From Erythrobacteraceae bacterium Alg239-R51 (GTDB lineage: Bacteria > Pseudomonadota > Alphaproteobacteria > Sphingomonadales > Sphingomonadaceae): DNA of 64,000 nt. Position numbers and translations under genes: made by a program. The DNA is taken from positions 434,001-498,000 of the forward strand of contig CAMZOI010000001.1 of NCBI GenBank assembly GCA_947331495.1, in the 5' to 3' direction. Positions 1,609-19,395 of the stretch are shown here, one piece after another (position 1 is the first letter of the stretch; the number at the start of each line of letters is the position of its first letter). Under the pieces are notes generated by a model. That model was not told the origin of the DNA and searched no databases. It saw only the letters and a list, made by a program, of their open reading frames with translations.

Positions 1609-1791
1609 ATGAAATTGCTGGATCGAATTGAGCGACATCTGAAAGAATCGCACATGTCGGCGACACGGTTCGGTCGTCGGGCAGTTGGCGATCCGCGCTT
1701 CGTGCTTGACCTGCGCGCTGGTCGCAGGCCGCGTAGAAGGACTATTGAGAAGGTGGAGTATTACCTGAAAACAAGAAATCCGCTTCAATAG
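1609..1791 (+). CDS. Small basic DNA-binding-like protein
   Basis: 60 residues from the ATG at 1609, which follows a GAGGAAGG ribosome site; an upstream TTG at 1585 is less likely. The protein is rich in Arg/Lys and contains ATRFGRRAVGDPRFV followed by a predicted recognition-like helix (RRTIEKVEYYL). This pattern recurs in short sphingomonad proteins with a helix-turn-helix look next to regulators. It is divergent from the S24 repressor and lies directly downstream of the SOS-like box, so it may be damage-inducible. No function can be assigned. Confidence 0.6.
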   Translation: MKLLDRIERHLKESHMSATRFGRRAVGDPRFVLDLRAGRRPRRRTIEKVEYYLKTRNPLQ

Positions 1792-1936
1792 TTCTTCGAA
1801 ATTCACGAAATTCTCATGGGTTTGTCGCAACCTGCCTTGGCGCGAGCTCTGCGGTCCGATACCGTCTAGCTCATTCAGGGTTTCTCCGTCCGGTTGCATT
1901 TCGCAAGCTTGGCCTGCTTCCGCACCGGTTCGCAGG

Positions 1937-1957
1937 AGCCCGTTACCTTTACGGGCT
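1937..1957 (+). other. Perfect stem-loop just before zorA
   Basis: AGCCCGT (1937-1943), a 7-base loop, ACGGGCT (1951-1957). The stem ends 12 bases before the zorA ATG and a few bases before its GGGGG ribosome site. A U-run is absent after it, so a classic terminator is unlikely; it may be a leader hairpin that affects zorA translation, or the worn end of an upstream terminator. Confidence 0.4.
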
Positions 1958-1969
1958 TCTGGGGGCTGC

Positions 1970-3895
1970 ATGGAAATTACCGAATGGCTTGGCCATGGGC
2001 TGATCTACTTCTTCACGGAAATCCCGCTCATCGGCGATGCGATGGCGGCATTTCTAGCGATCGTGCTGATCGGAACAGCATTCGCAATCGCGTACCGTTA
2101 CAAGCGGCAATATCATGCCCCTCTTGCTGATGCGATCGACGCCCGCGTTCGCCTGCTCGACGAGATAACCGGCGGCAGCACCGCCGATGTCGATCAGGCG
2201 CGCCTAGAGTTCGCGCGCCGCTTCAATGATATCGACGCCCAGATGATGGAGGCGAATGACTCTGAGGCGCTTCCGCTGCGCAGAACCTGGGAGGAATATC
2301 GCGAAACGATCGTCGATCCCTCGGCCGATGTTCTCCAGAACTCCGCTCGTCCGGAACACTTCTTCGTCAATCTTGGCGACCGTCATCGCGGGCTGAACTG
2401 GTTTGCGAATATCTTCATCGCCATCGGCCTGTTGATCACCTTCCTGGGCATCATCGCAGCTCTCTCGACACTCGACTTCAGCGGCGGTGTCGATGCGATG
2501 CAGGAGCGGCTCAATGATCTCATGAAGGTAGCGGGAGCGAAGTTCTGGGCCTCTGTGGGGGGCATCGTGGCTTCCATCGTCCTTCGATCCTACGACTACC
2601 GCTTCGGCAAGCGCATCAATGATGGGCTGTCCATGCTGTGTGACAAACTCGAGCATGGAATGGCCTATCTGCCGCCGCAACGGATCGCGAGCGATCAGCT
2701 GGCACAGCTCAAAGAGCAGACCCCGGCACTCCGCACCTTTTCCGAACAGCTTGCTGCCGCCCTCGACGGGGCCTTGGAAAAGCAGATGGCGCCCATGATT
2801 ACGCACCTGGGGTCGATCCAGCAGGGCATCGACAAGATCAGCGGTGGCGGGGGTGAAGCCGTCCGCGACGCGATCGCTTCAAGTGCCGGTGCAGAGATGG
2901 CGGGCCTCGCAGATGCCATTGGCGCAATGACCGTCTCGATGGCCACGATGTCCGAACGTATCGAAAAACAGACCGGCGAAGCTGACCGCCAGATCGAGGA
3001 AGCTGTCAGGCGCTTTGGCCAGGCTTCGGAAGAGATGCGGTCAGCATTTGGCGACCTCAACCGCAATTTCGGCGTCGTAGCGGACCGAATGCGCGAAGAA
3101 AACGAGCAGGCAAGCGAGCTTGCCAGACAGCGGATGGATGAGTTGCTGAGCAATCTTGGCAATACGCTCGACGATATGAAATCCGGACTCGCCTCGGCGG
3201 CCAGTCAGATGGGTGAAGCCTCGGCACGCGCGGCGAATGACGCGGCCCGGATCGGCCAGGAGGCAATGGAAAAGTCATTTTCCGAGTTCGTCGAACGGTT
3301 CAACCAGACCGGCGGCCCGCTGGTAGGCAGCATGAAAGACGCGGGCGATGCCATTTCTACGTCTGCGGACCGTCTCTCGACCGCGCAAAGTGCTATCGGA
3401 GATCACGCGCGAGCGATCGAGCAAGTCGCCGCTCGCTCGAGCGATCTGGCGACGGCGTTCGGAACGGTTGCCAACGACGTTGAAGCGGCAACCGCGCCTG
3501 TACGCCAGTCGGCAGTCTCGATAGCCGAAGCAGTCAAATCGGTTGAGACCATTGTTTCCCGAAATGCGCAGTCATCCGAGAGCGCTCGTGACGAAATGCG
3601 CCAGCTTGCGGCAGCGCTAAGCGAGACCGCGAGTGCGGCCTCCTCCGCATGGTCGGAATATCGTGCTCGCTTCGAGGATGTGGACCGCGCTCTTGGTGAC
3701 GCAATCGAGAAGATCTCGGATGCTGCCGGCAACCATGCGTCGAACCTCAACGAACGGGTTGGCCAGATCGACAAGGCTCTGGGCGATGGTGTGGCGCAGC
3801 TCGCCGGCGCACTCGAACCGCTCACGACCCTGCGGGATACCGTCGAGGAACTTGCCGGCATCCTTGCAAACCAGAACAGGGAAGCCGCTGAATAA
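1970..3895 (+). CDS. zorA: Zorya protein ZorA, MotA/TolQ-like proton-channel subunit with long coiled-coil tail
   Basis: 641 residues. Membrane segments are seen at about 24-42, 143-167 and 189-208, the last two forming the MotA/TolQ/ExbB-type channel pair. From about 215 to the end the protein is a long Ala/Glu/Ser-rich coiled coil, the cytoplasmic tail typical of ZorA. In Zorya, ZorA5B2 complexes form a proton-driven inner-membrane motor that senses phage entry and recruits the cytoplasmic effectors ZorC and ZorD. A GGGGG ribosome site precedes the ATG. The stop overlaps the zorB start by one base (TAATG). The family is assigned from topology, length and the full zorABCD neighbourhood. Confidence 0.92.
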   Translation: MEITEWLGHGLIYFFTEIPLIGDAMAAFLAIVLIGTAFAIAYRYKRQYHAPLADAIDARVRLLDEITGGSTADVDQARLEFARRFNDIDAQMMEANDSEALPLRRTWEEYRETIVDPSADVLQNSARPEHFFVNLGDRHRGLNWFANIFIAIGLLITFLGIIAALSTLDFSGGVDAMQERLNDLMKVAGAKFWASVGGIVASIVLRSYDYRFGKRINDGLSMLCDKLEHGMAYLPPQRIASDQLAQLKEQTPALRTFSEQLAAALDGALEKQMAPMITHLGSIQQGIDKISGGGGEAVRDAIASSAGAEMAGLADAIGAMTVSMATMSERIEKQTGEADRQIEEAVRRFGQASEEMRSAFGDLNRNFGVVADRMREENEQASELARQRMDELLSNLGNTLDDMKSGLASAASQMGEASARAANDAARIGQEAMEKSFSEFVERFNQTGGPLVGSMKDAGDAISTSADRLSTAQSAIGDHARAIEQVAARSSDLATAFGTVANDVEAATAPVRQSAVSIAEAVKSVETIVSRNAQSSESARDEMRQLAAALSETASAASSAWSEYRARFEDVDRALGDAIEKISDAAGNHASNLNERVGQIDKALGDGVAQLAGALEPLTTLRDTVEELAGILANQNREAAE

Positions 3896-4623
3896 TGGAA
3901 GGCGTAGTTCGCCGGAAGCCGCCTGAAGAGGGCGAAAGCTATTTCATGTCCATGACGGACATGATGGTCGGCCTGCTTCTTATTTTCATCATCCTGTTAG
4001 CCTACTTTGCCCTCAATCTGCAGACCAAGACCGAAGAGCTGACCGGCGCAAACAGGACCCGCGCCGAGATCCTCAACGATCTGCAGCAGTCCTTGAAAGA
4101 CCGAGGGCTCCAGGTAGAAATCGACACAAAGACCGGAGTTCTGAGGCTCCCCGACGATGTCCTGTTCGACAAAGGCCAATGGGAACTGACGGAGAGGGGG
4201 CAGGCCGCCATCAGCAAAGTTGCCAGCGCCATGGTCGAGGTTCTGCCGTGTTATACCGCCTCCGATCTTTGCGAAGGCGAACGCTCGCCGCATTTGATCG
4301 ATGCTGTCTTCGTCGAGGGGCACACGGACTCCGACGTCATGTCTGGAGGCATGAACAACTATGGACTTTCGGTGCGCCGGGCAGAGACGACCTTCACCAT
4401 GCTCCAGCGCAACCAACCAGCCCTGCGCGGTTTTCTCAATAGACCGGCGGGAGAAGACGGCTCGGCACCGATCCTGAGTCTGAGCGGCTACGGTCCCGAC
4501 CGTCCCGTCGATCGTGGAGACTCCGAAGAAGCCAAGAAGCGTAATCGTCGGATCGACTTGCGCTTCCTGATGACGACGCCAAGCGCCGGTCTCGACCGCG
4601 ACATTTTGAGGCAGGAGCAATGA
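3895..4623 (+). CDS. zorB: Zorya protein ZorB, MotB/OmpA-like stator subunit
   Basis: 242 residues. A short cytoplasmic N-terminus carries Asp22 just before a single membrane helix (about 23-42), the position of the proton-carrying Asp in MotB. The periplasmic part is an OmpA-type peptidoglycan-binding domain: EGHTDSD at 141-147, LSVRRA at 158-163 and NRRIDLRF at 217-224. ZorB pairs with ZorA and anchors the motor in the cell wall. The stop and the zorC start share ATGA, implying translational coupling. Confidence 0.93.
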   Translation: MEGVVRRKPPEEGESYFMSMTDMMVGLLLIFIILLAYFALNLQTKTEELTGANRTRAEILNDLQQSLKDRGLQVEIDTKTGVLRLPDDVLFDKGQWELTERGQAAISKVASAMVEVLPCYTASDLCEGERSPHLIDAVFVEGHTDSDVMSGGMNNYGLSVRRAETTFTMLQRNQPALRGFLNRPAGEDGSAPILSLSGYGPDRPVDRGDSEEAKKRNRRIDLRFLMTTPSAGLDRDILRQEQ

Positions 4624-6026
4624 GTTCGCTGCGGTCTGCAATCGCGAGAATGGAGGCCCTGGCATCGGCTGGACTGGCGAAACCTCCGACGACACAGCCT
4701 GAGTTGCAGCGACAATTGGCAAAGCTCGATGCATGTGTGGGCGAAGCAGAGCCCGTCGTTGAGCTTAAGCCATTCTTACGGGGAGCGGCCGATACCGGCG
4801 CAAGCGGGTTACCGCGGTTTCAGCTCAACAGGGTCCTGCGCGGCGCATGGTGTGACCCGGAATTCGATGAGCTGGGCGTGGCGGCGCTCGAACGCGCCGA
4901 CGTCGATCATCGGCGCAGTTCCGATCAGGCCGTGATCGATGGCTACCTTACCTATTTCCCGACAGACCGCTCGATAATGCCGATGCTCGCAGAAGCTGCC
5001 TCCCGCGCTGCCGGTCGGCATGACTGGGCGTGGCGCGAGCGTGGCGCACGGTGGGATCTGTTCAAGCCGCAGATAGGACCAGCGAAAGTGGCACGCGATT
5101 TTGTCACGCGCGATGCAGACGGCATTTCCTTTTTGATGCGCGAGACGGGCCTTGGTGCAAACCTTGCAGCGAGCGGGTTTGGTCAGGCAACTTTCGCCGA
5201 GACCTGCAAGGCAACCGCACAGCTTCAGCCTGCAGAAGCAGTCGGCCCGCAGCGCAGTATCCTGCGTATGTTTGATACAGAAGCGCAGGCAGGACAGTTG
5301 GAACTGGTTGTCCGCGCCCTGCTAGAGCCCTGGATTAGGACCAAACCCGAACCCGAGCATCGCAAGGCAATTTCCGAGTTTCTGCTCGATCAGGTGGGTG
5401 ATCCGCGTCTCCAGCGTACCCGATGGGACAGGATCGTGCGATCGCTCGCTGAGTCGATCGGCGAAGAACGCGCGCGCGAGGTTACCCAGGTGTTCAAGCG
5501 CTGGCTTACCGAAGTCGCCATGCGCGAGTTCTTCCGCGCCATCGCAAAGACCACGGATCGGCCTGATCAGTGGGCACAGCGCGAGAAATTCTGGATGGCA
5601 TACCTCGATGAGGGCCTCGTCAGCGATGCCTGGCCCGCTTTGGGCATCCGGGCGCGCAACAGGATCGAGGATCTCATTCGTCAAAGTGGTGAACGCCCGG
5701 AATATGGCATCATTCGGGGCGGTCCTGCTTCGTCTTCATCCATCATCATGCAGATAGGCGACCTGCGCATATCGGAATGGAGCGATAACGGATCCTGCCG
5801 CTTCTGGAGTGACACCGATCCCGGAGCTCCGAAACTCTACGCAAAGGTCTACGACGGCGGGAAGCTGCGGACCACCAGCGGACGGTCGGATTTCGAGTAT
5901 GAGTCCCATGTCCCAGCGAGTCCTGGATGGGAAGGCAAGTTCGCCGGTATCATCCATCGCCGGACATCAATCGCGCATCCTCGTTTCGGGAGAGGCCGGG
6001 GCCGCAACTGGAATGATCGATGGTAA
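4620..6026 (+). CDS. zorC: Zorya type I protein ZorC (EH-signature domain)
   Basis: 468 residues, soluble, no signal peptide or membrane helix. The C-terminal third (about 320-455) fits the EH_Signature family: FWMAYLDEG and AWPALG, then a segment with Glu in LRISEWSDNGSCRFW and His in FEYESHVP, with a further His in GIIHR. ZorC is the type I cytoplasmic effector that works with ZorD after ZorAB is triggered; it is reported to bind DNA. Overlaps zorD by 7 bases and zorB by 4. Its presence with an SNF2-type zorD makes this type I rather than type II (zorE) or III (zorFG). Confidence 0.85.
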   Translation: MSSLRSAIARMEALASAGLAKPPTTQPELQRQLAKLDACVGEAEPVVELKPFLRGAADTGASGLPRFQLNRVLRGAWCDPEFDELGVAALERADVDHRRSSDQAVIDGYLTYFPTDRSIMPMLAEAASRAAGRHDWAWRERGARWDLFKPQIGPAKVARDFVTRDADGISFLMRETGLGANLAASGFGQATFAETCKATAQLQPAEAVGPQRSILRMFDTEAQAGQLELVVRALLEPWIRTKPEPEHRKAISEFLLDQVGDPRLQRTRWDRIVRSLAESIGEERAREVTQVFKRWLTEVAMREFFRAIAKTTDRPDQWAQREKFWMAYLDEGLVSDAWPALGIRARNRIEDLIRQSGERPEYGIIRGGPASSSSIIMQIGDLRISEWSDNGSCRFWSDTDPGAPKLYAKVYDGGKLRTTSGRSDFEYESHVPASPGWEGKFAGIIHRRTSIAHPRFGRGRGRNWNDRW

Positions 6027-9000
6027 CGACCAAGTTCATTGCCACACAGAACGAGGACGGCGGTGAGACGATTGCGCTTCTCCGCGAGCAGCCAGGCGGG
6101 CTTTTCCGGCGAGCATCAAGCGAAATCGTGCCGGTCTCGGAGTGGCCAAGAGCAGCCCCTGAAGCTGGTCAGGCCGCTCTGGCGCTGGCTCGAGCTCTCG
6201 ATAACGATGGTCAGATCAGCGAGGAGGCGGAAGGCATAGTCCTTCCACCGCAGATCGTTGCCCGGCTCGATGAGGCCGACGCATTCGCCCTCGGTCTTCC
6301 TCCGGCTACATCCATAACCCTTCAGCTCAACTCGGGAGGTTCGCTCGCTGAAGGAACAATCAAGGTCGATACGAAATGGGTCCGCCGCGGTGGTTTGCCG
6401 GTTCGAGCCGACATCGCTGGCGCGCGTCTGCGAGAGGGCGGGCGTGTCGGACGAATTCCCGAGCCGATCTATTCGGCCTTCCAGGCCGCACTTGCAGTCA
6501 ATGCGGCTGATGATCCCGATCAGCGCCGTGCTGCCTTTGCCGAGCTTCGTTCGACGCTCGGAGATGACATCGGCACCGGCATCGAGGCGGACGGCTTTCT
6601 CGAGCGTGTCCGGATTGCCTATGCCGCCAATTTTTCACTCAACGCAAAGACCGACCATGGACGTTTCGACTTCGACCCCGTCCTCTTCTCGAGAAACGTA
6701 AGCGAGAGCGCTGAGGGTGACCTGGTCGACGAAGAAGAAGCGTCGCTGCTTACCCCGCAGGACAATCAGCATTTTCAGCGCAGGTTCCGGGGTCAGGACG
6801 GCGGGCGGCGAAGCTATCTGCTTTCCGACGGAACGCTCCTTTTTCTTGACCCGATGCTGGGCAAGGCCCTCGACATCGTGCGCGCAAAGCAGGTGGGCAA
6901 CTCACAGGAAAAGCGCGAATTCCTGCGTTCGCCGCAACGTATCCTGCGTGAGGAGCTCAAGCTTGACGCGGCAGGCGATGACGAGGCAGCTGATCGTCTC
7001 TTCATCGAGACACAGCAGTTTTCCGAGCGGGTCAGCGGGATCGAGGTCTGGCAAAAGCCGGTTTTACCTTGGATCAAACCCAAGCCGAACAGCTGGCTGC
7101 CCGAAGGGTTTGGATTGCGGATCGGGGATCCGCCCGACGCGCGTCATGTCGAGTTGGCTCCAGGTGAAGCTGAAACGATCGCAAGCGAAGTCGAGACAGC
7201 GATTGACACAGGCAAGGAAACGATCGCCTGGCGCGACGAAAGCATCCCCGCGACGCCTGCAACCCTGCAGGCCGCGCGAGCAATTGCAGACCTTGAACGT
7301 GAGATCGCTGATGAGGTCGAGGGACGCGCCTCGGACAGAACCGAACGCGAGAGCGTCGATATCTTCTTCCTTCAGGTCGGAGAGAATTTCGAGCAGCTGG
7401 ACTATGCGCGGCTGCCTCGTCCCGACGCTGAACTGCAGGATTTCGATGTTCCCGAGCTCCCCAAGGGACTGAGATCGGAACCCAAGCCTCACCAGGTGCA
7501 GGCGTTCGCCTGGTTTGCCGAGGCCTGGGAGCGCCGAATGCCGGGCGTCTTGCTCGCCGACGATATGGGGCTCGGAAAGACCTTCCAGGCGCTCATGTTC
7601 CTGCTCTGGCTGCGCAACAAAACGCCTCACCCGAAGCCCGTCTTGATTGTCGCGCCCACAGGCCTTCTGCGGAATTGGCAAGCCGAGCTCTCGCAGCACA
7701 TTGAGGCAGATCTCATGGGGCCTGTTGTCGAGGCGTTCGGCGCAAACCTGCGCAATTTCCGTCTCGAGGCTGGGAGCGATATTCGCGGGGGAACATCGCG
7801 TCTCGACGTGTCCGAATGGAATGACGCCGGAATCGTCCTGACGACCTACGAAACAATGCGCGATTATCACATGAGCTTCGCGCGCATTCCGTTCGCTGCA
7901 ATCGTCTACGATGAAATCCAGAAGCTCAAGAATCCTGCCAGCCAGATGACCCGCGCCGCAAAGGCGCTGAACGGCACAATCCAGATCGCCATGACTGGCA
8001 CACCGGTCGAGAACCGGTTGCAGGACCTGTGGTCGATTGCCGATACGGTCTATCCCGGTTTCCTCGGCTCGAGCCGGGAATTCGAAAGCAGCTTCCCCGC
8101 GAACGATCTCGAGCGCCTTGGCGATCTCCAGCACCGTCTGATCGAGCGCGACAAAGAATTTCCACCTTTCATGCTGCGCCGGATGAAGGGCGAAATCCTG
8201 ACCGGGTTGCCGGAGAAGAAGGCCCGCAAATATCCGGTCGAGATGCCGACCGCGCAAGCGCAGGCCTACGACCTCGTGCTGGCCAGAGCGCGAGCGCTAC
8301 GGGAAAGCGGCGAACAGGGTGCGATGCTCAAAGTGCTGCATATGCTGCGCGGTACATCGCTCCACCCGTCACCGCCGCGCGGAATTTCGAATATCGATGA
8401 ATACATCGGGCAATCTGCACGGCTGAAGAAGACCTTCGAAATCCTTGAAGAGGTCAGGCAGCGCGGCGAAAAGGCTCTGCTATTCTGCGAAGATCTCGAG
8501 ATGCAGGCCTTCCTCGCGATGGCAATTCAGGAGCGCTTCGCGCTCGAGCGCCGCCCGATGTGCATCAGCGGGAAGGTTGCGGGCCATAAGCGCCAGGAGA
8601 TGGTGACTGCCTTTCAGAGTTCGCCGGCTTCATTCGACGTTCTCATCCTGTCTCCCAAGGCTGGCGGCGTGGGGCTCACGATCACCGCCGCAAACAATGT
8701 GATCCATCTGTCCCGCTGGTGGAATCCGGCCGTTGAAGATCAGGCGACGGACCGCGCCTACCGGATCGGTCAGACCAGGCCAGTGACCATTCACATCCCG
8801 ATGGCTGTCCATCCGGACGAGGCGATCGGACCTTCAAGCTTCGACCAGCGTCTCGATGCCCTCATGGAGCGTAAGCGTTCGCTGAGCAGGGGTCTGCTCA
8901 TGCCGCCGGAGAGTGATCGCGATGTAGAAGACTTGCTTTCCGATGTGCTCGACGGGCGCCCTGCAGAGAACCGGGATCGAAGTAGTGCGTATGCCGCCGC

Positions 9001-9835
9001 CGGGCAGACGGCAGTGGACATTAAAGACACCGATTACAGCGCCAGTATTCGACATGCAGAACCGCCTGCCGCACCAGTGGCAGAGCCGGAGACCGAGGAG
9101 CCGACGGGCGATGAGGAGATTGCTCGCTCCCGCGGACCCGCGAGCGAAAACACAATTAGTTCCGCAAACCCTGATCCGGCTGCGGAGCACGCGGCAGAAC
9201 CAAGGTTAGAAGAAGCGGCGCGCTCGCAGTCCCACTCTGATCGTGCCGAGGCAGCATCGAGCAATGCCGAGCGCAAAAACCGGCGCCCCATTCTCTCCGT
9301 GCGTACTCCCATCGAGGCGGCTGAAGCGCGCGTTCCCTTCGTTCAGCGGGTCGTGTTTGAACAATATGGACAACGCGACTGGACGATTTTCGAGCAGTAC
9401 GCGCGCGACGCACGAATTGAACGGCTCGAAATCCAGGACCCCTATTGTTGCGCTGACGAGCAGGCTCGCGGGCGCCTCATCAATTTCATCGGTCGCTTTG
9501 AACAGCTCGCTTCGGAAATCGCGGCCGTTCAAATTGTGACGTTCGACGCTGATTCCGTGCAGACTCGTGACCCTGAAAGCACGCGTGACCAGCGTCAGGA
9601 CCTTGAAGATCGGTGGAACCGTATGCTGGCCTCCGTCCCCCTCCACCTCGCACAGAAGTCACGGCGCTCGGGCGGCGACCTGCACGATCGTTTCGTGAGG
9701 GCTAAACTGGAGAATGGCGATACCGTCATCTGGGATCTTGGACGGGGTATCGACGGTGTCATGAACGCGCGCTGGTCTTGCGTCGTGAATGCTTTTTACG
9801 AGGGCTCGATTTCGACCTCTCGGGCAATGCACTGA
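6020..9835 (+). CDS. zorD: Zorya type I protein ZorD, SNF2 helicase with C-terminal extension
   Basis: 1271 residues. An N-terminal domain of about 480 residues is followed by an SNF2/Swi2 ATPase: Walker A DDMGLGKTFQ near 512-521, DEAH-type box YDEIQKLKN near 630, and the helicase C motifs GGVGLTITAANNVIHL, WWNPAVEDQATDRAYRIGQ near 880-925. In Zorya I this protein translocates on and degrades phage DNA with its own nuclease activity. After a low-complexity Glu/Ala/Pro linker (about 980-1100) comes an extra domain ending in LHDRFVRAKLENGDTVIWDL and GRGID (about 1221-1245), which resembles the PLD-like MIT C-terminal domain. The protein is longer than the ZorD I remember (about 1,080 residues). 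Overlaps zorC by 7 bases. Confidence 0.9.
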   Translation: MVTTKFIATQNEDGGETIALLREQPGGLFRRASSEIVPVSEWPRAAPEAGQAALALARALDNDGQISEEAEGIVLPPQIVARLDEADAFALGLPPATSITLQLNSGGSLAEGTIKVDTKWVRRGGLPVRADIAGARLREGGRVGRIPEPIYSAFQAALAVNAADDPDQRRAAFAELRSTLGDDIGTGIEADGFLERVRIAYAANFSLNAKTDHGRFDFDPVLFSRNVSESAEGDLVDEEEASLLTPQDNQHFQRRFRGQDGGRRSYLLSDGTLLFLDPMLGKALDIVRAKQVGNSQEKREFLRSPQRILREELKLDAAGDDEAADRLFIETQQFSERVSGIEVWQKPVLPWIKPKPNSWLPEGFGLRIGDPPDARHVELAPGEAETIASEVETAIDTGKETIAWRDESIPATPATLQAARAIADLEREIADEVEGRASDRTERESVDIFFLQVGENFEQLDYARLPRPDAELQDFDVPELPKGLRSEPKPHQVQAFAWFAEAWERRMPGVLLADDMGLGKTFQALMFLLWLRNKTPHPKPVLIVAPTGLLRNWQAELSQHIEADLMGPVVEAFGANLRNFRLEAGSDIRGGTSRLDVSEWNDAGIVLTTYETMRDYHMSFARIPFAAIVYDEIQKLKNPASQMTRAAKALNGTIQIAMTGTPVENRLQDLWSIADTVYPGFLGSSREFESSFPANDLERLGDLQHRLIERDKEFPPFMLRRMKGEILTGLPEKKARKYPVEMPTAQAQAYDLVLARARALRESGEQGAMLKVLHMLRGTSLHPSPPRGISNIDEYIGQSARLKKTFEILEEVRQRGEKALLFCEDLEMQAFLAMAIQERFALERRPMCISGKVAGHKRQEMVTAFQSSPASFDVLILSPKAGGVGLTITAANNVIHLSRWWNPAVEDQATDRAYRIGQTRPVTIHIPMAVHPDEAIGPSSFDQRLDALMERKRSLSRGLLMPPESDRDVEDLLSDVLDGRPAENRDRSSAYAAAGQTAVDIKDTDYSASIRHAEPPAAPVAEPETEEPTGDEEIARSRGPASENTISSANPDPAAEHAAEPRLEEAARSQSHSDRAEAASSNAERKNRRPILSVRTPIEAAEARVPFVQRVVFEQYGQRDWTIFEQYARDARIERLEIQDPYCCADEQARGRLINFIGRFEQLASEIAAVQIVTFDADSVQTRDPESTRDQRQDLEDRWNRMLASVPLHLAQKSRRSGGDLHDRFVRAKLENGDTVIWDLGRGIDGVMNARWSCVVNAFYEGSISTSRAMH

Positions 9836-9915
9836 AAAACCTGACCTTCATCATTGATTATGAAGTAACGTTCAGAGATGTTGAGGTAAGTGAGGGTGTT
9901 GTCTGGCATCCATGA

Positions 9916-12900
9916 TTGCGAGAGGTGCCGGGGGTGAGTGCGGGGATGGAAGGACGCGATTTCAAATCTGAAATCGACGCGGCGCAAAACGACCCGGTTC
10001 GGCTGCGCAAGATTGCCGATGACATTCACGCTAGCGGCGGTTCGCGTATCCTGATGATCCGAGCGATCCAGCTGGCCAGGGCAGCCGACAGCGGACCGCA
10101 TCCTTTGGGCAAAACCTGCGGGGACCTTGGCCTACCGCGCCCGACTGGCCTCCCGCTTTACCGCTACAAGCTCGCACCGGGAATTTTTCAGCGGATCGAA
10201 GCGAAGCTTGCTGCCAATCTCGCATCGGACTTGCTGCGACCGTCACTAGCTCCAGCTTTCGTCATATGGGCGGCAGACTGGTTTCGGCGCTCCTACCAGG
10301 GCGGCATGCAGCGCTGGGCCGATATCGAAGCGGTTTTGGGGCTCCAGCTCCCACAATCGGAATGGCGGGCACTTGCAGACCGCGGTTTCGATGCCTGGGG
10401 CGTTGATCCTCTTATCACTGCACACGGAAATCAGCGTCTCTCCAATCTCGCGCGGCATGGGGGCTTTCCTGCGGCGGCAATCGCAGGCGGTGCGAGCTGG
10501 CCGCGTCGCTTCCTAGAGCGGGCAGTCGGTGAGCTTCTCGGGGCAGACATTCAGGACATCGCTACCGCTGTTTCGATCTGCGAACGCAACGAATATTTGC
10601 TTCCCTCAATCTGGCGCAGCCCGGAAATGCACGCAATCTGCGGGGAACTTGCCCTCAAGATCGTCGAACTTCGTGCTTTCATCGACAAGGAAGTGCCCGG
10701 TGACGGCCGCCCTTATTCGGCCCGGCTTGACCACGCTTACGAAGACTGGCGCGATGAACTGCCGATGACACTCGACGGGGCTGCTGCGGGCCTCATCGAT
10801 ACGCTCCTTGAAGCCAGAAAGCTGACCGGAACTGGGAGCATCCGGGTTGGACGGTTGATGCGGTCGCAGAACGGTGAATGGCGCGAAAGTCTGGATTTCC
10901 ATCTCGAAGGTCGCTGGGACGACAGGGATCGTGTGCTGTCCGCAGGAGAATATGTCCGGGTGTTTCTTCAGCCCTCGGGTGCTTTGGCGGACCGCATCTC
11001 CGGTCGGCTGGCTTACCTGGAGGTTGAATCAGGCAATTGCTGGATCGCGCGCGCTATGCGTAGCGAAGCTGCGATCGATTTTCCCTTGGACCTCTCCGTT
11101 ACCGCCGAATTCCATGCCCGCGGCGAAAGACTCGCCCAAAGCTTTGTCCTGCCGGGCGGCAAAGCGGTTGGGGACGGACTGCGGATATTCGAGCGGCAGA
11201 CCGGAGACACGGAGCTAGGCACGTTTTCCCTTATCGGTCAGGGGTCGGGTGGTTATCGCGCCGAACCAGTCTTTGTCGATGTTCCGCAGGATTGGATGCT
11301 TCGCGGCAAGGACAGCAATACAGAGATCGAAGTCGAAGATTTTGCCTTTGCACCTGGTCGTTCGCTCTACCGCTGTGCTGGCCAGATCATCGCCGAGAAG
11401 CCCAATGGCGACGCATTTCTGGTGCGGACGGGGCAGAGTGCAGATCGTAAGGATCGCCTGACCATTGTCGCCCAAGAGGCGATCGGTGTGCAGGCGCCCG
11501 GCGGCGAACGGTTGATCAAACATCCGCTGCATGCAGAAGTCGAAGACGGGGTTTCCCGGCGCACTGCAACGCGCGGAGAGGTCGGCTGGCGGTTTGCAGG
11601 GGAAAGCAGTTGGCGCGATGATCTTGTCAACGCGGGCCCTGGGCACTGCGAGTTCGCCTGGCTCGATGGAACGACCAAGCATGTTCGGGACCGGACGAGT
11701 GCACTGGTTCTGCCGACTGAATTCGCACTGAGCCAGCGGATCAATGCGGCCCATGCGGAAATCGCTTTGGAAGGTTGGACCGGAGAAGCGGTGCTCAGCG
11801 ATGAAACAGCGACTGCGAACCATCGCTGGCGGGTGCGCGTCGATCCGCCCCGTCGCGCGCTGCTCGGCTTGCGCCTCACCCCCGACCATGGCTCCACCTT
11901 CAACCTCAATGTACCTTTGCGATCGAAAGAATGGCTGACGAACTGGGATGGCGGACTTCTTAGGCGCGATGCTGTCCTTGGCCTCGCCGATCTTCGTGAC
12001 ACCGTTGCCCGCGCGCCAGGCCGTGCGATGCTGATGGGCGAAGTTGCCCATCACGCTGGAGCGTCGCTTGAGGCGAGTTGGAAGGTCGATGTCGAACTGG
12101 GCCTGTCGGCTCTGCGCAACGATATTGCCGCCTTGATGCGGCCGCTCGGCATCGATGCCCAGGTCCGGCTCGACTTTCACAACGGCAGCAATGACAACTG
12201 GTACGTCACGGAATTCGGCAATTCTCTTGAGTGGGAACCTTCGGGAGGGCTGCGTCCGAAAACGGCCATTGTCGGCGAGGATGTCCGCGTTGGCGGCCGC
12301 TTTCTTGGAGCGCCCGAGAAAGAGGTGGATTTCGGTCCGTTTGACGGATTGCTTGGCGGCCTCGGAGGGCAATTGATTCAACTGCCACGATTGCGCGGTC
12401 CATGGCTCGTCTATCTGCGGGAAGGTGCTCGCGTCCTCACGCGGCCAAAGTTTATCGACGGCGATCCGGTTCACGACGTGCCGCAACACAGGCTCGGCCG
12501 GGCCATGGCACAGCCTCTTTTGCAAGCGCGCGAGGACCTCGTGAGGCTGGCGGAGGAACTCGCTGCCGAGCCCATGTCTTCCGAAGCGACCCAGACCATT
12601 CGTGCAGTCATGGACTTGGCGCTGTCGCTCAATGGCTTGCCTCCGCAGACCTTCGAAATCTTCAGCAAGTTAGAGATTGCCGGTCCGCTTGCGCCGCTCC
12701 TTCTTTATCGCTGCGAGGAACAACACCTCTCGACGATCCTCGAGCTGTTTGATGGCCTGTGCTCAAGCTGGTCCCTTTTGCCGATCAAGGCCTGGGACAC
12801 TGCCTTTCAGGCTCAAGGTAATTATCTGGTCAGCCGGCTCGATGACCCTCAGTGGGCGTTGGCAAACATCACGGAACGTCAGAACGAGATCGCGGCGCGT

Positions 12901-13245
12901 GCGCCGCAGCTTGCACCCCTCATTTGCCGGGACTTCTCGCCGCTCAGCTGGGAAGAGCTGCGCAACCACTTCACGAGCCATACAAGCGAGGGCATCAATA
13001 TGGATGCCGGCGGCTTCAACCCTTTTCGGCCTGCTTACAGCGAGCTACTGCCGAGAGAGAACTTCGTCGAAGCGCTGATGCGGGTCTTCGATGCTCCTTT
13101 CGCCGCTGCTCTGTCCGCTACCGGACGTGCTTCTCTTGAGAAGGAGCAGGTCCTGACCGTCAAGGACGTCGAACGACGTCACCCCGACTACTTTGCCAAA
13201 GCCTTTGGCTATGCCCTTTCGGAGCTCAAGAATGGCCGCCAGTGA
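9916..13245 (+). CDS. druH: Druantia type III protein DruH (STY4851/ECs_5259 family)
   Basis: Up to 1109 residues; no known enzymatic motif, no signal peptide, no clear membrane helix. The size, lack of recognised domains and position directly before a 2,000-residue DruE-like helicase match DruH of Druantia type III, annotated as STY4851/ECs_5259 family. The start is uncertain: TTG at 9916 is the longest, GTG at 9934 or ATG at 9946 are plausible and remove at most 10 residues. It lies 80 bases after zorD and overlaps druE by 14 bases. Molecular role unknown; both genes are needed for Druantia III in published work. Confidence 0.78.
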   Translation: MREVPGVSAGMEGRDFKSEIDAAQNDPVRLRKIADDIHASGGSRILMIRAIQLARAADSGPHPLGKTCGDLGLPRPTGLPLYRYKLAPGIFQRIEAKLAANLASDLLRPSLAPAFVIWAADWFRRSYQGGMQRWADIEAVLGLQLPQSEWRALADRGFDAWGVDPLITAHGNQRLSNLARHGGFPAAAIAGGASWPRRFLERAVGELLGADIQDIATAVSICERNEYLLPSIWRSPEMHAICGELALKIVELRAFIDKEVPGDGRPYSARLDHAYEDWRDELPMTLDGAAAGLIDTLLEARKLTGTGSIRVGRLMRSQNGEWRESLDFHLEGRWDDRDRVLSAGEYVRVFLQPSGALADRISGRLAYLEVESGNCWIARAMRSEAAIDFPLDLSVTAEFHARGERLAQSFVLPGGKAVGDGLRIFERQTGDTELGTFSLIGQGSGGYRAEPVFVDVPQDWMLRGKDSNTEIEVEDFAFAPGRSLYRCAGQIIAEKPNGDAFLVRTGQSADRKDRLTIVAQEAIGVQAPGGERLIKHPLHAEVEDGVSRRTATRGEVGWRFAGESSWRDDLVNAGPGHCEFAWLDGTTKHVRDRTSALVLPTEFALSQRINAAHAEIALEGWTGEAVLSDETATANHRWRVRVDPPRRALLGLRLTPDHGSTFNLNVPLRSKEWLTNWDGGLLRRDAVLGLADLRDTVARAPGRAMLMGEVAHHAGASLEASWKVDVELGLSALRNDIAALMRPLGIDAQVRLDFHNGSNDNWYVTEFGNSLEWEPSGGLRPKTAIVGEDVRVGGRFLGAPEKEVDFGPFDGLLGGLGGQLIQLPRLRGPWLVYLREGARVLTRPKFIDGDPVHDVPQHRLGRAMAQPLLQAREDLVRLAEELAAEPMSSEATQTIRAVMDLALSLNGLPPQTFEIFSKLEIAGPLAPLLLYRCEEQHLSTILELFDGLCSSWSLLPIKAWDTAFQAQGNYLVSRLDDPQWALANITERQNEIAARAPQLAPLICRDFSPLSWEELRNHFTSHTSEGINMDAGGFNPFRPAYSELLPRENFVEALMRVFDAPFAAALSATGRASLEKEQVLTVKDVERRHPDYFAKAFGYALSELKNGRQ

Positions 13246-16200
13246 TCCCCTCCCTACATCCCGATTGTCGCCGATGGAGGTACACCAGCGGCTGAGGACT
13301 GGGCTCGCCGAAGCCGTGGTCTCGCGGGCGGGTATCCGGCACGAAGGGCTCAACGCTTTTCTCCGGAGCACGCTTGCCGGTACGGACCCAGCAAACGGTA
13401 GCCTCCTTTCCGAACAGCTTTTTCAGGCTGCTCCCGGCTATGTATCCTCAGGAAAGAGCCCCAACCAACTTCAAGCGCTGCTGCATCAGCGCACGATCGA
13501 AGCGATCACCCAAACGTCGGATACTGATCTACGCTTCGATTACCCTGCCTACGCGCACCAGCTGTCGACGTGGGAACTTCTCAGCACGCAAGAGCCGCAA
13601 TCGGTTCTGGTTTCGAGCGGCACGGGGTCGGGAAAGACCGAATGCTTCCTGGTTCCGATGCTCGATGATCTGGTCCGGGAGTCCGCAGAGCAAGGTCCTC
13701 TGACAGGGGTTCGGGCGCTCATGCTATATCCGCTGAACGCTCTTATCGCGAGCCAGGAGAAGCGCCTCACAGCCTGGACCAAGCCGCTTCGCGGCGATGT
13801 CCGCTTTGCCCTCTACAACGGATTGATGGGAACGGCGCGAAAGTCCAATCGCGACAAGGCCGAGCACGAGATACCGCATCAGGTTCTTTACCGCGAAACC
13901 CTCCGGGCCAACCCACCGCCGATCCTTGTTACCAACCAGACGATGCTCGAATACATGACGATCCGGCGCGAGGATCGTCCGATCCTCGACGCGTCAAAAG
14001 GCAAGCTGCGCTGGATCGTTATCGACGAAGCGCACAGTTACATCGGCTCGGCAGCGGCGGAGCTCTCGCTCCTGCTTCGCCGGGTGATGAACGCATTCCA
14101 TGTGACGCCCGATCAGGTCCGCTTCGTTGCGACGTCGGCGACCATCGGCTCTGCTGACGACCAGAAGGCCCGCGACGACCTTCAGAGATTCCTTGCCGAC
14201 ATTGCTGGCGTTCCGCTTGAGCGGGCGCATGTCGTTGTGGGAAAGGCTCAGCCGGTCAACCTCTCGAAAGTCCTGACAGCGTCCGATGATCCGGCAGCTT
14301 CGTCGGTTGCCGAGAGGCTGGAAGGCGAGCCTCAGACTCTGGCCTCGCTTAAAGCACTCTCGCCGGACGCCGAAAGGATTTTGCTCGATCTTTCGGCCCA
14401 TAATGCCAGCGAAGCGAAGCCTGTCCTGCCGATGCGAGCGCACAGCTTCACGCGGGCAGTTGCCGGGCTCTGGACCTGCATCAATGTCGACTGCCCGGGC
14501 GAGATGCGGCCCAAGGATTGGCCATTTGGCGCTGTGCTCTTCGACCATCGGGACCAATGCCCCCATTGTCAGTCGATGGTGTTCGAAATTCAGAACTGCC
14601 TCGATTGTGGTGAGCCCTTTCTCCCGGCCGATGACATGGGAGACAGGATCGTACCGCGGCGGAGTGATCATGATGCAGATGAGTTTCGCGAAGATAGCTA
14701 TCGTGATCGCGATCATGATGATGACGATGATGAAGACGAGCATGAGGGGATCGGCCACCCACGGCTGATTGCCATCAACCCCAAATCCGAAGCGACGGCG
14801 ACCGCTTTCGATGTATCCAGTGGCGAGTTCACTGGGGAAGCGGGGCATTTTCATCTGACCCAGCTCGACGAGGGACGTTGCCCGGCCTGTCTCGGAAACA
14901 AGCGGCGCGGGCGACCGGCGGTCTTTCCCTTTCGCTTTGGCACACCGTTCCTCACCCAGAATGCTGCACCGATCCTCCTTGAGGGTGTGTCGCCACATCA
15001 GGCGGAGCACGCCCTGCCGTTCGATGGCCGTCAGCTGATCAGCTTTTCGGACAGCAGGCAGGGAACAGCTCGCTTTGCCGCCAATATTGAAACCAACGGT
15101 GAGCGGGGCTTCGTTCGCGGCTTTATCTACCATGCCGTTCAGAAGGCTGCCCACGGTAACGACCTGACCGAAGAGCGCAGGGAAGAGCTGCTTAAAAAGA
15201 AGTCTGCTCTAGCGAACCTCGTGGCAGACATGCCTGGGTTCAAGGATGATATCGCCAAGATAGACGCGGAGCTCGCGGGCGGCGCGGCAACCGGAATATC
15301 CTGGAAGGACCTCGTATCCGGGCTCGCTTCTGAGCCAGCCATTGGCATGATGGCCAAGGTCTGGGACCTCGATCGCAGCGAACGGTTTCACGATAACCGG
15401 GAAGCGCTGGCCCGCTTCATGCTCTTGCGCGAACTTGCCCGTCGTCCGCGCAATGCCAATGCGATGGAGACGCTTGGCCTGGCACGGCTCCGTTTCCCGG
15501 ATATCGAGCGGATTGGCCCGGATAGGCTACCTGAGCTTGTCGGCCAGAAGGGCTATTCGATCGAAGATTGGCGCGGCTTCCTCTACTACATGGTCGACTA
15601 TCTTCGCGGCCAGTTTGCCCTTGAGGTGGACGACGGTGATGCGCGTTGGATGCCTGGGCGCGCGCGGCCTCGCAATGTGATCGGGCCCGACCAGCCCCCT
15701 GGCGCCAAGCGCGACGTCTCCTGGCCTTTGGTCAACACTAAAGGGCGTCAGCCCGACTCCATTCTTCTCTTGGCGTCAGCCCTGAACCTTGACCTCACGT
15801 CACAGCGCGACCGCCATGAAATCAATCAGGTCATGCATGCCGCCTGGAATCAGCTCGCTCCTCTTCTGTCGGGCGTTGGTGGCACATTCAGCCTGCGATT
15901 GGAGAAAACCGCCGAGGTCGAAGCGGTGTCCAAGGCTTGGCAATGCCCCTTGACCCGGCGTGTCCTCCCCCGCCTGGTCTTTGGCAGGTCACCCAATCTG
16001 GTGAGTGCTGGCAAGATGTTCGCCAACAAGCCAGCGCGTGAAATTGAGTTTCCGCGTCTACCAAGGACAAGGCCTCTTGCGTTAGATGGCCAGAAGGAAA
16101 TCGCAGCCTGGCTCCAGACCAACGAAGAAGTCGCGGCCCTTCGCGAGGGTGGCATCTGGATGAACTGGCACGATCAGGCCGCGCTCGCCACGCCTTATCT

Positions 16201-19195
16201 GCGAGCCGAGGAACACAGTGCCCAGCAGCCCCCGCACAGGCTGCGCGAGTTCGAGGAGCAATTCAAGGAAGGCGATATCAACCTGCTCGCCTGCTCCACC
16301 ACCATGGAAATGGGTGTCGACATCGGTTCGATCGAAGGCGTGCTGATGACCAATGTTCCGCCCTCGATCGCCAACTACAACCAGCGGGCCGGTCGGGCAG
16401 GCCGCCGCGGCCAGGGTTTTTCAATAAGTCTCACAATTGCCCGCAATACACCTCTCGATCTTGAGACGTTCGCCGATCCTGCGGGCTATTTGCGCCGCAA
16501 GCTCGCATCGCCGCGCGTTTCGCTTGATTCAGATCGGATCGCACAACGTCACGCGAACGCCTATCTTCTCGCCCAATGGTTTCGCGAGGTTGAGGGTGAG
16601 TTTGCCCGCACTAAGACCGGGGATTTCTTCGGCTGTCGCGCTGACCTTCGTCCTTTCGAAGGTCTCGCTCCCGTGGATGCCTTTTGCGAATGGCTCGATC
16701 TACCAACAACGGCATCCGCAACCGAAGAGGGTCTGCTGCGGCTCCTCAGGGGAACAGGTCTCGAATACGACAGCGAAATCCGCGGACATACGGCGGAGAT
16801 GTTTGGGCAGGAAGCTGCGAATTTCCGTCGTACATGGCAGCGCCTAAAGGAAGACTCGGACGCGCTCGAAGGGCCGGCAAAGAAGGCCATCGAGTTTCAG
16901 GCGCGGCGATTGTGCAAGGAGTTCCTCTTGAAGGAGCTCGCCAATCGCTCGCTTATCCCTGGGAGCGGTTTTCCGACATCAGTTGTCCCGTTTGATACCC
17001 TCTGTGCCGAGACGCAGAAGGCGCAGGAGCGCAACCGTTCGGAAGAGGAAGGCGCGCGTGATCGGCGCTATGAATGCCCGACGCGCAACGCCGATATCGC
17101 CATTCGGGAATATGCCCCAGGGGCAGAGGTCGTGGTAGACGGACTGGTTTGGAAATCGGCCGGGGTCACCCTCAACTGGCTTAGCCCGATCGACAGTGGC
17201 CAACGTGAACCGCAGAACCTTCGTTGGGCCTGGTGGTGCGACCATTGTGGTGGGGCGGGCAGCGATCACCAGATGCCAGACCAGTGTGCCCATTGCGGCG
17301 AACGAAGCATTACCATCGAGCAGTTTCTTGAACCGGCTGGGTTCCGGGTCGACTGGAGCGCTCAGCCGCATGCCGACACCGATCAGGCTGTCTATATCGA
17401 ACCCAAGTCCCCGAAGGTCAGTGTCGGTGATGCCCTTTGGCAACCCATGCTGCAGCCTGAAACCGGTCGGATCCGGGCTTCGCATGAAGGTTACATCTAC
17501 CATCATTCGCGTGGACCCAACGACCAGGGTTACGAGATTTGCCTGGAGTGTGGACGGGCCGGGGATGCAGGGACCGACGCTCTCAAAGACCATCGGCCGC
17601 TCACGCCGAGGGACCGAAAGGCGATAGACCGCTGTCCGGGCAATGACGAGGGTTATGCGATCACGAGTGCTCTGGCGCTGGGCCATGAAGTTCTAACCGA
17701 TGTGGTTGAGCTACAATTGCCTGGGCTGGAAAGTGACGGTGCGGCCTGGGCGCTTGGCGCAGCCGTACGCGAGAGTCTTGCGCGCTGGCTTGGAATCGAG
17801 CCGCGCGAGCTCGGGATTTCCGTGGCAGCTCGAGATGGCAAGCTCGGTCGCAGAGTGCCGTCTGTTTACATCTTCGATGAGGCATCTGGAGGTGCCGGAT
17901 ACGCTCCGAGACTTCTCGATGACATCTATCATGTATTCGAACGAGCGGCCCGTGTCCTCGATTGTCCCAAGGAATGCGAGATGGGGTGTTCGGCCTGCGT
18001 CCTCGCTGCCGATCTCTACAAGCAGCAGGGACGTCTCGACCGGCGGTCTGCTCTCCTCGCGGTCCAGGCGTTTCTTGAGACGAATGCTGAACTGCCGCAG
18101 GAAGATCGTGCGGTCCCCGATGCCAGGGCAATAAATGACGCGGCAAACACACTCCTTTTGAGAGCACGAAGCGGAGACAGCATTTCCGTCTTGTTGCCCA
18201 CCGTGTTCGATCTGGCAGAGCTGACTTCTACCAAGATGCGCACCTTCTTTTCTGCCGCCTCGGCCCGCGGCGTTCCGGTGACGCTCGTGCTTGATCCGGG
18301 TTCCTTTGATAAGCTCGAAGAGGTCGAACGGCGCTTTTTGCGCGATGCTTCGGTGCGTTTCGAATTCTCTTTGGCCCTGGGCAAAGGAGAAGACGCACCC
18401 TTCGAGAGCAAACGCCTGGCCGAATTGATCTCGTCTGATCGTACCACAGGGTTCTTCTCACGCGATGCGAACGCGGCGCAGCCGGGGGAGCGATGGGGTC
18501 TGGGTGATACGCATGCTGTCGTTGCCGGTACTCTCAGCGGCCACACCGCCTACAGCCCGATCAACCCGGATGATCTGGAGCGACAGGTTGCGGCTGGTGA
18601 TCAGGTCGAGCTGATGCAAGGTTTCGGGCAATGCCCGGTTGGCCAATTTGGCAAACGCTTTGGCTCGAAACTGAAACAGCAGATGGAAGCGGCTGGTGTT
18701 TGGAGGCCTGGCAGTCTTGTGCGGATCACCTACGCCGACCGCTACCTGAACTCTCCGCTGACTATGCTCCTCTTCCTGCGGACGTGCGAAGCTCTATCCG
18801 CTGACTTAAAGGCTGATAGTCCCGTTGAAGTCGATATCCTGGTTCAGCCACTAAAGAACGATCGTAGTCCTTATCAGATCAAACACGATTGGACTTATGA
18901 GGATGACCGAGCGGAAGTAGCCGAGCTTTTGGGCGAAAAATTTGGCCTCGATGTCGATCTTCAGGTCACGCAAAATTCCGACCATGGCCGCAAGCTCGAG
19001 CTTGAATACGCCGATGGTCAGAAGGTGCTCGTGCTGCTCGACCAGGGTTTTGGATATTGGCGAGTAGCTGGTAGCCCGCCGCGACATGACTTTCGTTCGG
19101 CACCCGCTGCGCAGGCGAGTGAGCTTTTGCGCTCATCGGCTGCGGTTTCCGGCGTGGGAGAGAGCTACTACGCAGTGAAGAGAGGTGCGAAGTGA
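13232..19195 (+). CDS. druE: Druantia protein DruE, giant DEAH helicase with DUF1998 domain
   Basis: About 1987 residues from the ATG at 13232, chosen because GGAG stands 7 bases before it; an earlier ATG at 13193 lacks such a site. Superfamily 2 motifs: Walker A SSGTGSGKTECF (about 130), DEAH in VIDEAHSYIG (about 265), motif VI QRAGRAGRRG (about 1051). Cys-pair clusters near 415-465 (CPHC, CLDC) and 1336-1357 (CDHC, CAHC) are probable zinc sites. The DUF1998 region ends with four Cys in CPKECEMGCSAC (about 1578), as in MrfA-type helicases. About 400 further residues follow. A strongly acidic run lies near 490-510. The nearest alternatives, DrmA/DrmB of DISARM or Dpd helicases, are shorter and have other partners. 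Confidence 0.82.
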   Translation: MAASDPLPTSRLSPMEVHQRLRTGLAEAVVSRAGIRHEGLNAFLRSTLAGTDPANGSLLSEQLFQAAPGYVSSGKSPNQLQALLHQRTIEAITQTSDTDLRFDYPAYAHQLSTWELLSTQEPQSVLVSSGTGSGKTECFLVPMLDDLVRESAEQGPLTGVRALMLYPLNALIASQEKRLTAWTKPLRGDVRFALYNGLMGTARKSNRDKAEHEIPHQVLYRETLRANPPPILVTNQTMLEYMTIRREDRPILDASKGKLRWIVIDEAHSYIGSAAAELSLLLRRVMNAFHVTPDQVRFVATSATIGSADDQKARDDLQRFLADIAGVPLERAHVVVGKAQPVNLSKVLTASDDPAASSVAERLEGEPQTLASLKALSPDAERILLDLSAHNASEAKPVLPMRAHSFTRAVAGLWTCINVDCPGEMRPKDWPFGAVLFDHRDQCPHCQSMVFEIQNCLDCGEPFLPADDMGDRIVPRRSDHDADEFREDSYRDRDHDDDDDEDEHEGIGHPRLIAINPKSEATATAFDVSSGEFTGEAGHFHLTQLDEGRCPACLGNKRRGRPAVFPFRFGTPFLTQNAAPILLEGVSPHQAEHALPFDGRQLISFSDSRQGTARFAANIETNGERGFVRGFIYHAVQKAAHGNDLTEERREELLKKKSALANLVADMPGFKDDIAKIDAELAGGAATGISWKDLVSGLASEPAIGMMAKVWDLDRSERFHDNREALARFMLLRELARRPRNANAMETLGLARLRFPDIERIGPDRLPELVGQKGYSIEDWRGFLYYMVDYLRGQFALEVDDGDARWMPGRARPRNVIGPDQPPGAKRDVSWPLVNTKGRQPDSILLLASALNLDLTSQRDRHEINQVMHAAWNQLAPLLSGVGGTFSLRLEKTAEVEAVSKAWQCPLTRRVLPRLVFGRSPNLVSAGKMFANKPAREIEFPRLPRTRPLALDGQKEIAAWLQTNEEVAALREGGIWMNWHDQAALATPYLRAEEHSAQQPPHRLREFEEQFKEGDINLLACSTTMEMGVDIGSIEGVLMTNVPPSIANYNQRAGRAGRRGQGFSISLTIARNTPLDLETFADPAGYLRRKLASPRVSLDSDRIAQRHANAYLLAQWFREVEGEFARTKTGDFFGCRADLRPFEGLAPVDAFCEWLDLPTTASATEEGLLRLLRGTGLEYDSEIRGHTAEMFGQEAANFRRTWQRLKEDSDALEGPAKKAIEFQARRLCKEFLLKELANRSLIPGSGFPTSVVPFDTLCAETQKAQERNRSEEEGARDRRYECPTRNADIAIREYAPGAEVVVDGLVWKSAGVTLNWLSPIDSGQREPQNLRWAWWCDHCGGAGSDHQMPDQCAHCGERSITIEQFLEPAGFRVDWSAQPHADTDQAVYIEPKSPKVSVGDALWQPMLQPETGRIRASHEGYIYHHSRGPNDQGYEICLECGRAGDAGTDALKDHRPLTPRDRKAIDRCPGNDEGYAITSALALGHEVLTDVVELQLPGLESDGAAWALGAAVRESLARWLGIEPRELGISVAARDGKLGRRVPSVYIFDEASGGAGYAPRLLDDIYHVFERAARVLDCPKECEMGCSACVLAADLYKQQGRLDRRSALLAVQAFLETNAELPQEDRAVPDARAINDAANTLLLRARSGDSISVLLPTVFDLAELTSTKMRTFFSAASARGVPVTLVLDPGSFDKLEEVERRFLRDASVRFEFSLALGKGEDAPFESKRLAELISSDRTTGFFSRDANAAQPGERWGLGDTHAVVAGTLSGHTAYSPINPDDLERQVAAGDQVELMQGFGQCPVGQFGKRFGSKLKQQMEAAGVWRPGSLVRITYADRYLNSPLTMLLFLRTCEALSADLKADSPVEVDILVQPLKNDRSPYQIKHDWTYEDDRAEVAELLGEKFGLDVDLQVTQNSDHGRKLELEYADGQKVLVLLDQGFGYWRVAGSPPRHDFRSAPAAQASELLRSSAAVSGVGESYYAVKRGAK

Positions 19196-19395
19196 ACCAT
19201 TTTGGCCTCGCCGCGCGGTCGCATTGGTCGAGCCTTATGGCAAGGGCACTCAGAGCGCTCGCTTGGATCGACTGCTACAAGCACGACGCCTTCAATCTTG
19301 AAGCCAACCAGGGCAGTGGGGCGGATCGGACGGCTTCGGGCTACGGCGAAGATGGATTTGATATTTTTTGTGAGCCCGCGAGCTCCCGCTTGTAA
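19192..19395 (+). CDS. Possible small protein after druE
   Basis: 67 residues from a GTG that overlaps the druE stop (GTGA). It occupies the 226-base gap before hsdM. No recognised motif; a few Trp, Cys and acidic residues but no clear hydrophobic core. A second frame over the same bases is also open, so coding is not certain. It could be a coupled accessory peptide or untranslated spacer. Confidence 0.25.
   Translation: MNHFGLAARSHWSSLMARALRALAWIDCYKHDAFNLEANQGSGADRTASGYGEDGFDIFCEPASSRL

Follow-up and report, generated by a model that had tools for sequence, protein, structure and literature searches.

Does a Zorya system that directly adjoins a Druantia system form a unit with it, or do the two only share a carrier? 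The question is raised by six genes at positions 1970..19195 of a 64,000-nucleotide stretch of the genome of Erythrobacteraceae bacterium Alg239-R51 (contig CAMZOI010000001.1); we refer to this whole stretch as the window. We favor, with modest confidence, the reading that these genes are a mobile zorABCD–druHE cassette: a complete type I Zorya and a complete type III Druantia, inherited largely as a unit, most likely expressed as one transcript from before zorA, and providing two-layer antiphage defense whose layers would meet on shared phage DNA. The gene content and order, the length of the gap, the recurrence of the block, its more than single origin and its position in a cargo slot were computed here, and the steps of the mechanism are taken from published work on each system. 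Statements on published systems refer to the portions of the cited papers available to us.

Six genes and a short junction

Open reading frame (ORF) listing and PADLOC matches (system types as in PMC8565338) identify six intact ORFs on the + strand in the order zorA-zorB-zorC-zorD-druH-druE (lengths in amino acids, aa).

1970..3895, + strand: zorA, 641 aa, MotA/TolQ-like motor protein with a long tail (PADLOC ZorA1, 1209 bits, residues 1-641)
3895..4623, + strand: zorB, 242 aa, MotB/OmpA-like (PADLOC ZorB1, 273 bits; Pfam OmpA above cut-off)
4620..6026, + strand: zorC, 468 aa, EH_Signature protein (PADLOC ZorC1, 816 bits; Pfam EH_Signature, 131 bits)
6020..9835, + strand: zorD, 1271 aa, SNF2-type helicase (PADLOC ZorD1, 1990 bits; Pfam SNF2-rel_dom and Helicase_C)
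9263..9832, + strand: ZorD C-terminal domain, residues 1082-1271, HDR motif, predicted PLD-like fold of MIT_C type
9836..9945, + strand: zorD–druH junction of 110 bases (17 loci have 96-113)
9946..13245, + strand: druH, 1099 aa (PADLOC DruH3, 2365 bits; solved DruH 9tud, E 4.6e-10)
13232..19195, + strand: druE, 1987 aa, YprA-type helicase with a Zn-binding module and a PLD-like end (PADLOC DruE3, 2084 bits; Pfam DEAD, Helicase_C and MZB)
18575..19192, + strand: DruE C-terminal domain, residues 1782-1987, predicted MIT_C-type PLD-like fold with an HGR motif

The best PADLOC matches for zorA, zorB, zorC and zorD together give the gene set of type I Zorya, and druH adjoins druE, as in type III Druantia, here with a 14-base overlap. 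No ZorE nickase lies beside ZorAB in the window, where ZorC and ZorD come after ZorAB. The preliminary description of this DNA had proposed just such a same-strand block, with a type I Zorya joined to a type III Druantia in an alphaproteobacterium; the positions, the open frames and the family matches agree with it, and the hidden Markov model searches for ZorC, DruH and DruE on which it had staked the assignment all return matches (816, 2365 and 2084 bits).

Alignment to solved structures supports these assignments at the residue level. Asp22 of ZorB corresponds to residue 24 of chain 8vvn_B, the membrane-helix aspartate of type I Zorya, and D24N is a mutant tested in the type I study (PMC11890865). 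ZorD matches the ZorD-like chain 8qy7 (310 bits) and carries a Walker A motif, GLGKT, at 517 and a DExQ-type motif, DEIQ, at 631. DruE matches chain 9tu7 (876 bits), with GSGKT at residue 132, DEAH at 265 and a C-terminus that aligns to 9tu7 residues 1668-2086, so that the DEAD/DEAH helicase, the Zn module and the PLD-like end are all present. For DruH, in which we sought the nucleotide-binding residues reported for the E. coli protein, the alignment to 9tud is restricted to residues 104-501 and 915-972.

Neighboring genes overlap by 1, 4, 7 and 14 bases, as had been described, the last figure when druE begins at ATG 13232; the longest druE ORF, starting at TTG 13193, would give 53 bases instead. 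A single gap, also described before, separates the two systems, but its length was revised from about 80 to 110 bases: the DruH model begins at ATG 9946, and 98 or 80 bases result from GTG 9934 or TTG 9916. In a simple scan, neither a terminator nor a + strand promoter turned up in this gap, which has one weak site on the − strand. This result says little about expression because the same scan finds no + strand promoter before zorA either. In our reading, the six genes are probably co-transcribed. An AT-rich stretch of the junction (9849-9881, around ATCATTGATTATRAAGTAA) is kept in many relatives up to about 25% divergent and could be a regulator or promoter site.

Recurrence and origins of the joined block

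An alignment scan for DruH in one genome per species (84,980 species) yielded 45 loci. The 20 loci closest to the window (L026-L045) have a DruH 61-97% identical to its own, and the ZorABCD–DruHE order is present in 18 of the 19 that could be judged, L042 being too short. In 17 of the 20, zorD precedes druH on the same strand and is accompanied by the other zor genes to the extent that the contig covers them (genes are broken in one of these loci, L043); in Novosphingobium umbonatum the join is split at a contig end, with ZorABCD and the start of druH on one contig (L067) and the rest on another (L039). Among the more distant loci (L046-L070 except L067, 24 in all), three are joined as well (L054, L059 and L065), and several of the others lie on short contigs that leave room for joining.

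The gap measures 96-113 bases in 17 loci of the window clade, the window included, and both its length and the gene order persist as DruH identity falls to 71-74%, while other neighbors change. In two further loci, L027 and L028, the gap is 941 and 1035 bases long and is filled in each by one whole co-directional ORF (284 and 325 aa) that stops at the druH start or runs 4 bases into it; druH stays open in both. As the inserted ORF touches druH, a druH promoter within the gap is not always kept. The two ORFs (L027:9146-10000 and L028:9021-9998) are unrelated to each other and could be extra components or anti-defense genes; that of L028 matches DUF6745, and that of L027 matched no family in Pfam or PADLOC.

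A sample of 396 genomes of the order contained DruH in 9, ZorC in 15 and both in 5, and ZorC was found in 10 of the 387 DruH-negative genomes (Fisher p = 4e-6, to be taken only as a guide, the species being related). All five genomes with both proteins carry joined systems (the window, L013, L014, L016 and L017). The constant gap in 17 loci, the ORF-filled gap in two more and the enrichment of ZorC in DruH-positive genomes together place the junction beyond chance.

FastTree phylogenies of DruE (25 sequences) and of ZorA plus ZorB (26 sequences) were used to ask how often the systems were joined. On the DruE tree, joined systems occupy three places: the window clade is sister to the unlinked L045 (support 1.00), the Altericroceibacterium locus L054 is sister to the unlinked L057 (1.00), and the Asticcacaulis loci L059 and L065 fall outside the clade of the other two (1.00), with the unlinked L010, L012 and L066 (0.82). 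L059 and L065 also group with unlinked systems on the ZorA plus ZorB tree (1.00). In L054 the order is reversed, with DruHE preceding ZorABC, and zorD is present in the genome. This pattern suggests three separate joinings, one of them in reversed gene order; at least two are firmly indicated by the trees. The third, for which the evidence is the DruE tree together with the reversed gene order, could instead be a swap of the Druantia half.

Across 13 loci, protein distances correlate as strongly over the junction (ZorD–DruH, 0.925) as within the systems (ZorC–ZorD, 0.905; DruH–DruE, 0.881). One relative shows decay: of the block, G205 has kept druH with some 200 bases of zorD, and its druE is interrupted by 847 inserted bases that contain transposase-like ORFs. 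This single case fits a druHE pair of little use after loss of zorABC, without proving it; the ORFs upstream resemble, by eye, type I restriction and GmrSD genes.

Thirty-six control stretches around other ZorC hits, of which the order sample supplied 10 and a phylum sample 26 (ZorC-positive there: 37 genomes of 398, the window's included), extend about 9-11 kb to each side, some stopping at a contig end. None contained a DruH match at E 1e-6, and matches to the DruE profile were weak (L117, 56 bits; L120, 61 bits). Eleven phylum-sample genomes were DruE-positive, and none of the six inspected besides the window had ZorD beside DruH in the DruE flanks. In one genus, an EH_Signature match lies 16-28 kb from druE (G572, G629 and G637), and a ZorB-like gene (55 bits) lies about 14 kb from DruHE in G637; this is a looser, island-level link of Druantia to a Zorya-like set. 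The ZorB-like gene of G637 stands beside an ORF of about 800 aa with a C-terminal EH_Signature (L224:15306-19901), a pair that could represent a variant Zorya in which the ZorC-like protein is fused.

Plasmid and viral records were also compared. Nine of 28 DruE-bearing plasmid records, inspected with the same profiles, had no ZorA, ZorB or ZorC, and one record (L253) had a ZorD-profile match of 235 bits downstream. Among plasmid records, ZorC matched one (Azospirillum, 28.7% identity) and DruH four (24-26% identity, three of them retrieved), window DNA at 9600-13300 had no plasmid match, and alignment of DruH to viral_contigs found no relative.

Several observations weigh against inheritance as a unit by repeated joining. 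L045 has DruH and DruE with no Zor gene at the locus and no ZorD in the genome, L119 has a close ZorABCD with no Druantia nearby, and no further joined case was seen in the phylum samples. On the ZorA plus ZorB tree, L054 and the unlinked L119 adjoin the window clade (support for their branching order 0.44), so two of the joinings may represent a single Zor lineage whose Druantia half was exchanged. The ZorB–DruH distance correlation is the lowest of the 13-locus set (0.670), and the trees of the two halves share 6 of 10 splits and differ elsewhere among close relatives. Because each half's alignment rejects the topology of the other, the halves have recombined among close relatives, and strict co-inheritance is ruled out.

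These observations leave a possible, if less probable, alternative in which two independent systems with complementary phage ranges lie side by side on one carrier element and share neither transcript nor mechanism. Such an arrangement would explain why the halves also occur apart and were recombined at shallow depth, it matches a slot that holds other defense-type cargo in relatives (below), and Zorya I and Druantia III co-occur in Pseudomonas aeruginosa with complementary phage ranges (PMC10889362). It accounts less well for an order and a 96-113-base gap that persist to 71-74% DruH identity while the neighbors change, for three places of joined systems on the DruE tree, and for inserted ORFs that are whole, co-directional and touching druH. 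We prefer a cassette inherited largely as a unit.

A cargo slot in a conjugative element

In the window the cassette occupies a variable cargo slot within a conjugative element. Upstream, genes encode a relaxase of TrwC type and a coupling protein of TrwB type, and genes matching TraG, TraH, TraN, TrbC, TraC, TrbI and TraK lie downstream. The slot edges were placed by blastn of relatives that carry an S24 protein at 99-100% identity.

92-850, + strand: HNH gene, slot-side backbone (Pfam HNH_2)
861-1496, − strand: S24 peptidase-like regulator, slot-side backbone, also found beside other cargo (Pfam Peptidase_S24)
1758..28349: cargo slot, approximate edges (blastn of relatives; left, backbone matches stop at 1708-1773; right, they start again at 28328-28349)
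19422..25941, + strand: second cargo module, hsdM-hsdS-hsdR, type I restriction-modification (PADLOC MTase_I and Specificity_I; Pfam HSDR_N)
26033..28180, + strand: third cargo gene, GmrSD_N with C-terminal SLFN_AlbA_2 (Pfam; PADLOC candidate HEC-05, 158 bits)

Thirteen of 60 genomes of the genus, among them the window's, encode this S24 protein at 99-100% identity. ZorABCD–DruHE stands beside it in three of the 13 (window, L026 of Qipengyuania proteolytica, and L027/L189), and other cargo with backbone on both sides in six (L190, 2.7 kb; L195 and L196, 8.5 kb; L197-L199, 5.3 kb); in the remaining four (L191-L194) the right edge lies beyond the stretch. Type II methylases are among the alternative cargo, as is a set that has an MzaB match. 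That set, with an SNF2 helicase near ZorD/DpdE, is alone in the slot in G161 and G782 (L196:2548-8891) and lies downstream of DruHE in L027 (L027:19339-23297), which shows that cargo modules are shuffled.

S24 lies upstream at 83-100% identity in eight joined loci and at 57% in L037 and L041. No S24 was found upstream in L030, L031, L032, L034, L038, L040 and L067; of these seven, L034, L040 and L067 are the only ones to include about 2 kb of sequence ahead of zorA. S24 and HNH are accordingly ruled out as cassette members, being backbone beside other cargo and not found in these 2 kb of L034, L040 and L067. Genes downstream of the cassette vary among joined loci; HsdM, for example, matches at 1480 bits or more in L029, L033, L035 and L036 and weakly, at 72-83 bits, in L026, L028, L030 and L044. 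Recurrence of the block, its apparent repeated joining and its status as cargo on a conjugative element go beyond the preliminary description.

Other features of the element were recorded. The combination of GmrSD_N and SLFN_AlbA_2 in the third cargo gene (26033-28180) is an unusual fusion. A HipA-family kinase gene (28210-29514, − strand) lies right at the right edge of the slot and is kept in relatives of the element with different cargo. A tRNA-Glu (45494-45575), considered as an insertion site, lies inside an opposite-strand ORF matching TrbI. Past the transfer genes, a 379-aa ThiF-family (E1-like) ORF (52968-54107, − strand) is overlapped by an opposite-strand transposase ORF (53553-54815).

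A proposed two-layer defense and a shared end domain

The components of the cassette are known and its joined type I form is the new point. Already known are the synergy of Zorya II with Druantia III and the co-occurrence of Zorya I with Druantia III in P. aeruginosa genomes; we found no description of a joined type I Zorya–Druantia III cassette in the literature searched, which leaves out most subscription papers. In E. coli, DruH is a likely sensor and DruE a helicase-nuclease, and the synergy with Zorya II runs via RecBCD (PMC13192584, a 2026 preprint, whose survey of the Zorya–Druantia III association used ZorE). The window resembles that pair in that DruH and DruE share an island with an adjacent Zorya motor system; ZorA and ZorB are common to both. 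It differs in that the E. coli Zorya is of type II with ZorE and often lies within 20 kb, whereas here a type I system with ZorC and ZorD is directly joined, and in that the synergy there needs RecBCD, whereas the host of the window has AddA and no RecB over cut-off.

Other associations are similar in part. The Zorya II–Druantia III–ARMADA array (PMC12458937) is likewise a conserved defense array with Druantia III on mobile elements, but there the Zorya is of type II and the carriers are tRNA-integrating phage-like or satellite-like elements, in contrast to a type I system on a conjugative element with F-type transfer genes. In P. aeruginosa the same two system types occur together in genomes more than expected; this co-occurrence is at genome level, with complementary phage ranges, and the available text does not speak of a joined gene block (PMC10889362). 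Type I Zorya as described in PMC11890865 shares ZorABCD, with a ZorAB motor and a recruited ZorCD nuclease module; the word Druantia is absent from the text available, which gives it no Druantia partner. ZorD there has an Mrr-like nuclease domain, whereas the window ZorD ends in a MIT_C-type domain.

Among Pfam matches of the window ZorD at E 0.01 there was no Mrr family. We treat the Mrr-like domain as descriptive of ZorD and not defining, since at least 12 of 36 ZorD proteins inspected end otherwise and the best PADLOC ZorD model spans the C-terminus of the window protein. The ends of ZorD and DruE are homologous by profile comparison and share one predicted fold (MITD1-type, PLD-like), a new point of this analysis. 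MITD1 was the best among the fold matches listed; solved DruE 9tu7 was not in that listing, which is therefore uninformative on it. As a mark of joined systems the ZorD end domain is ruled out, its motif being present in 10 of 17 unlinked ZorD proteins inspected; the domain also occurs in unlinked DruE.

How the two halves would cooperate can be outlined from work on each. ZorAB would sense envelope injury at phage entry and recruit ZorC and ZorD to the DNA, DruH would sense late phage proteins, and DruE would load on DNA with exposed single strands and cut it. By analogy with Zorya II–Druantia III, the layers may meet on the same damaged phage DNA, with ZorD taking the place of the ZorE nickase. 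The host encodes an alphaproteobacterial AddA (986 bits, above cut-off), and no RecB passed the curated cut-off (best match 232 bits versus 696); our guess is that AddAB stands in for RecBCD.

It is improbable that the block is a single immune machine, in which ZorAB recruits both helicases and, through their homologous MIT_C-type ends, ZorD and DruE come to the same phage DNA ends and work in relay, one acting at entry and one in replication, the systems being joined repeatedly because the domain was already shared: the domain is no mark of joining, a common fold does not show contact, G205 is one case only, and E. coli DruE and DruH formed no stable complex (PMC13192584). The homologous end domain offers a concrete place to seek coupling.

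Recurrence of the six-gene block in alphaproteobacteria and its carriage on a transferable element suggest that the two systems are kept together because they work well together, and repeated joining points to selection for the pair. A joined type I version in a host with AddA makes it testable whether any Zorya would help Druantia III via shared DNA intermediates, or only one with ZorE.
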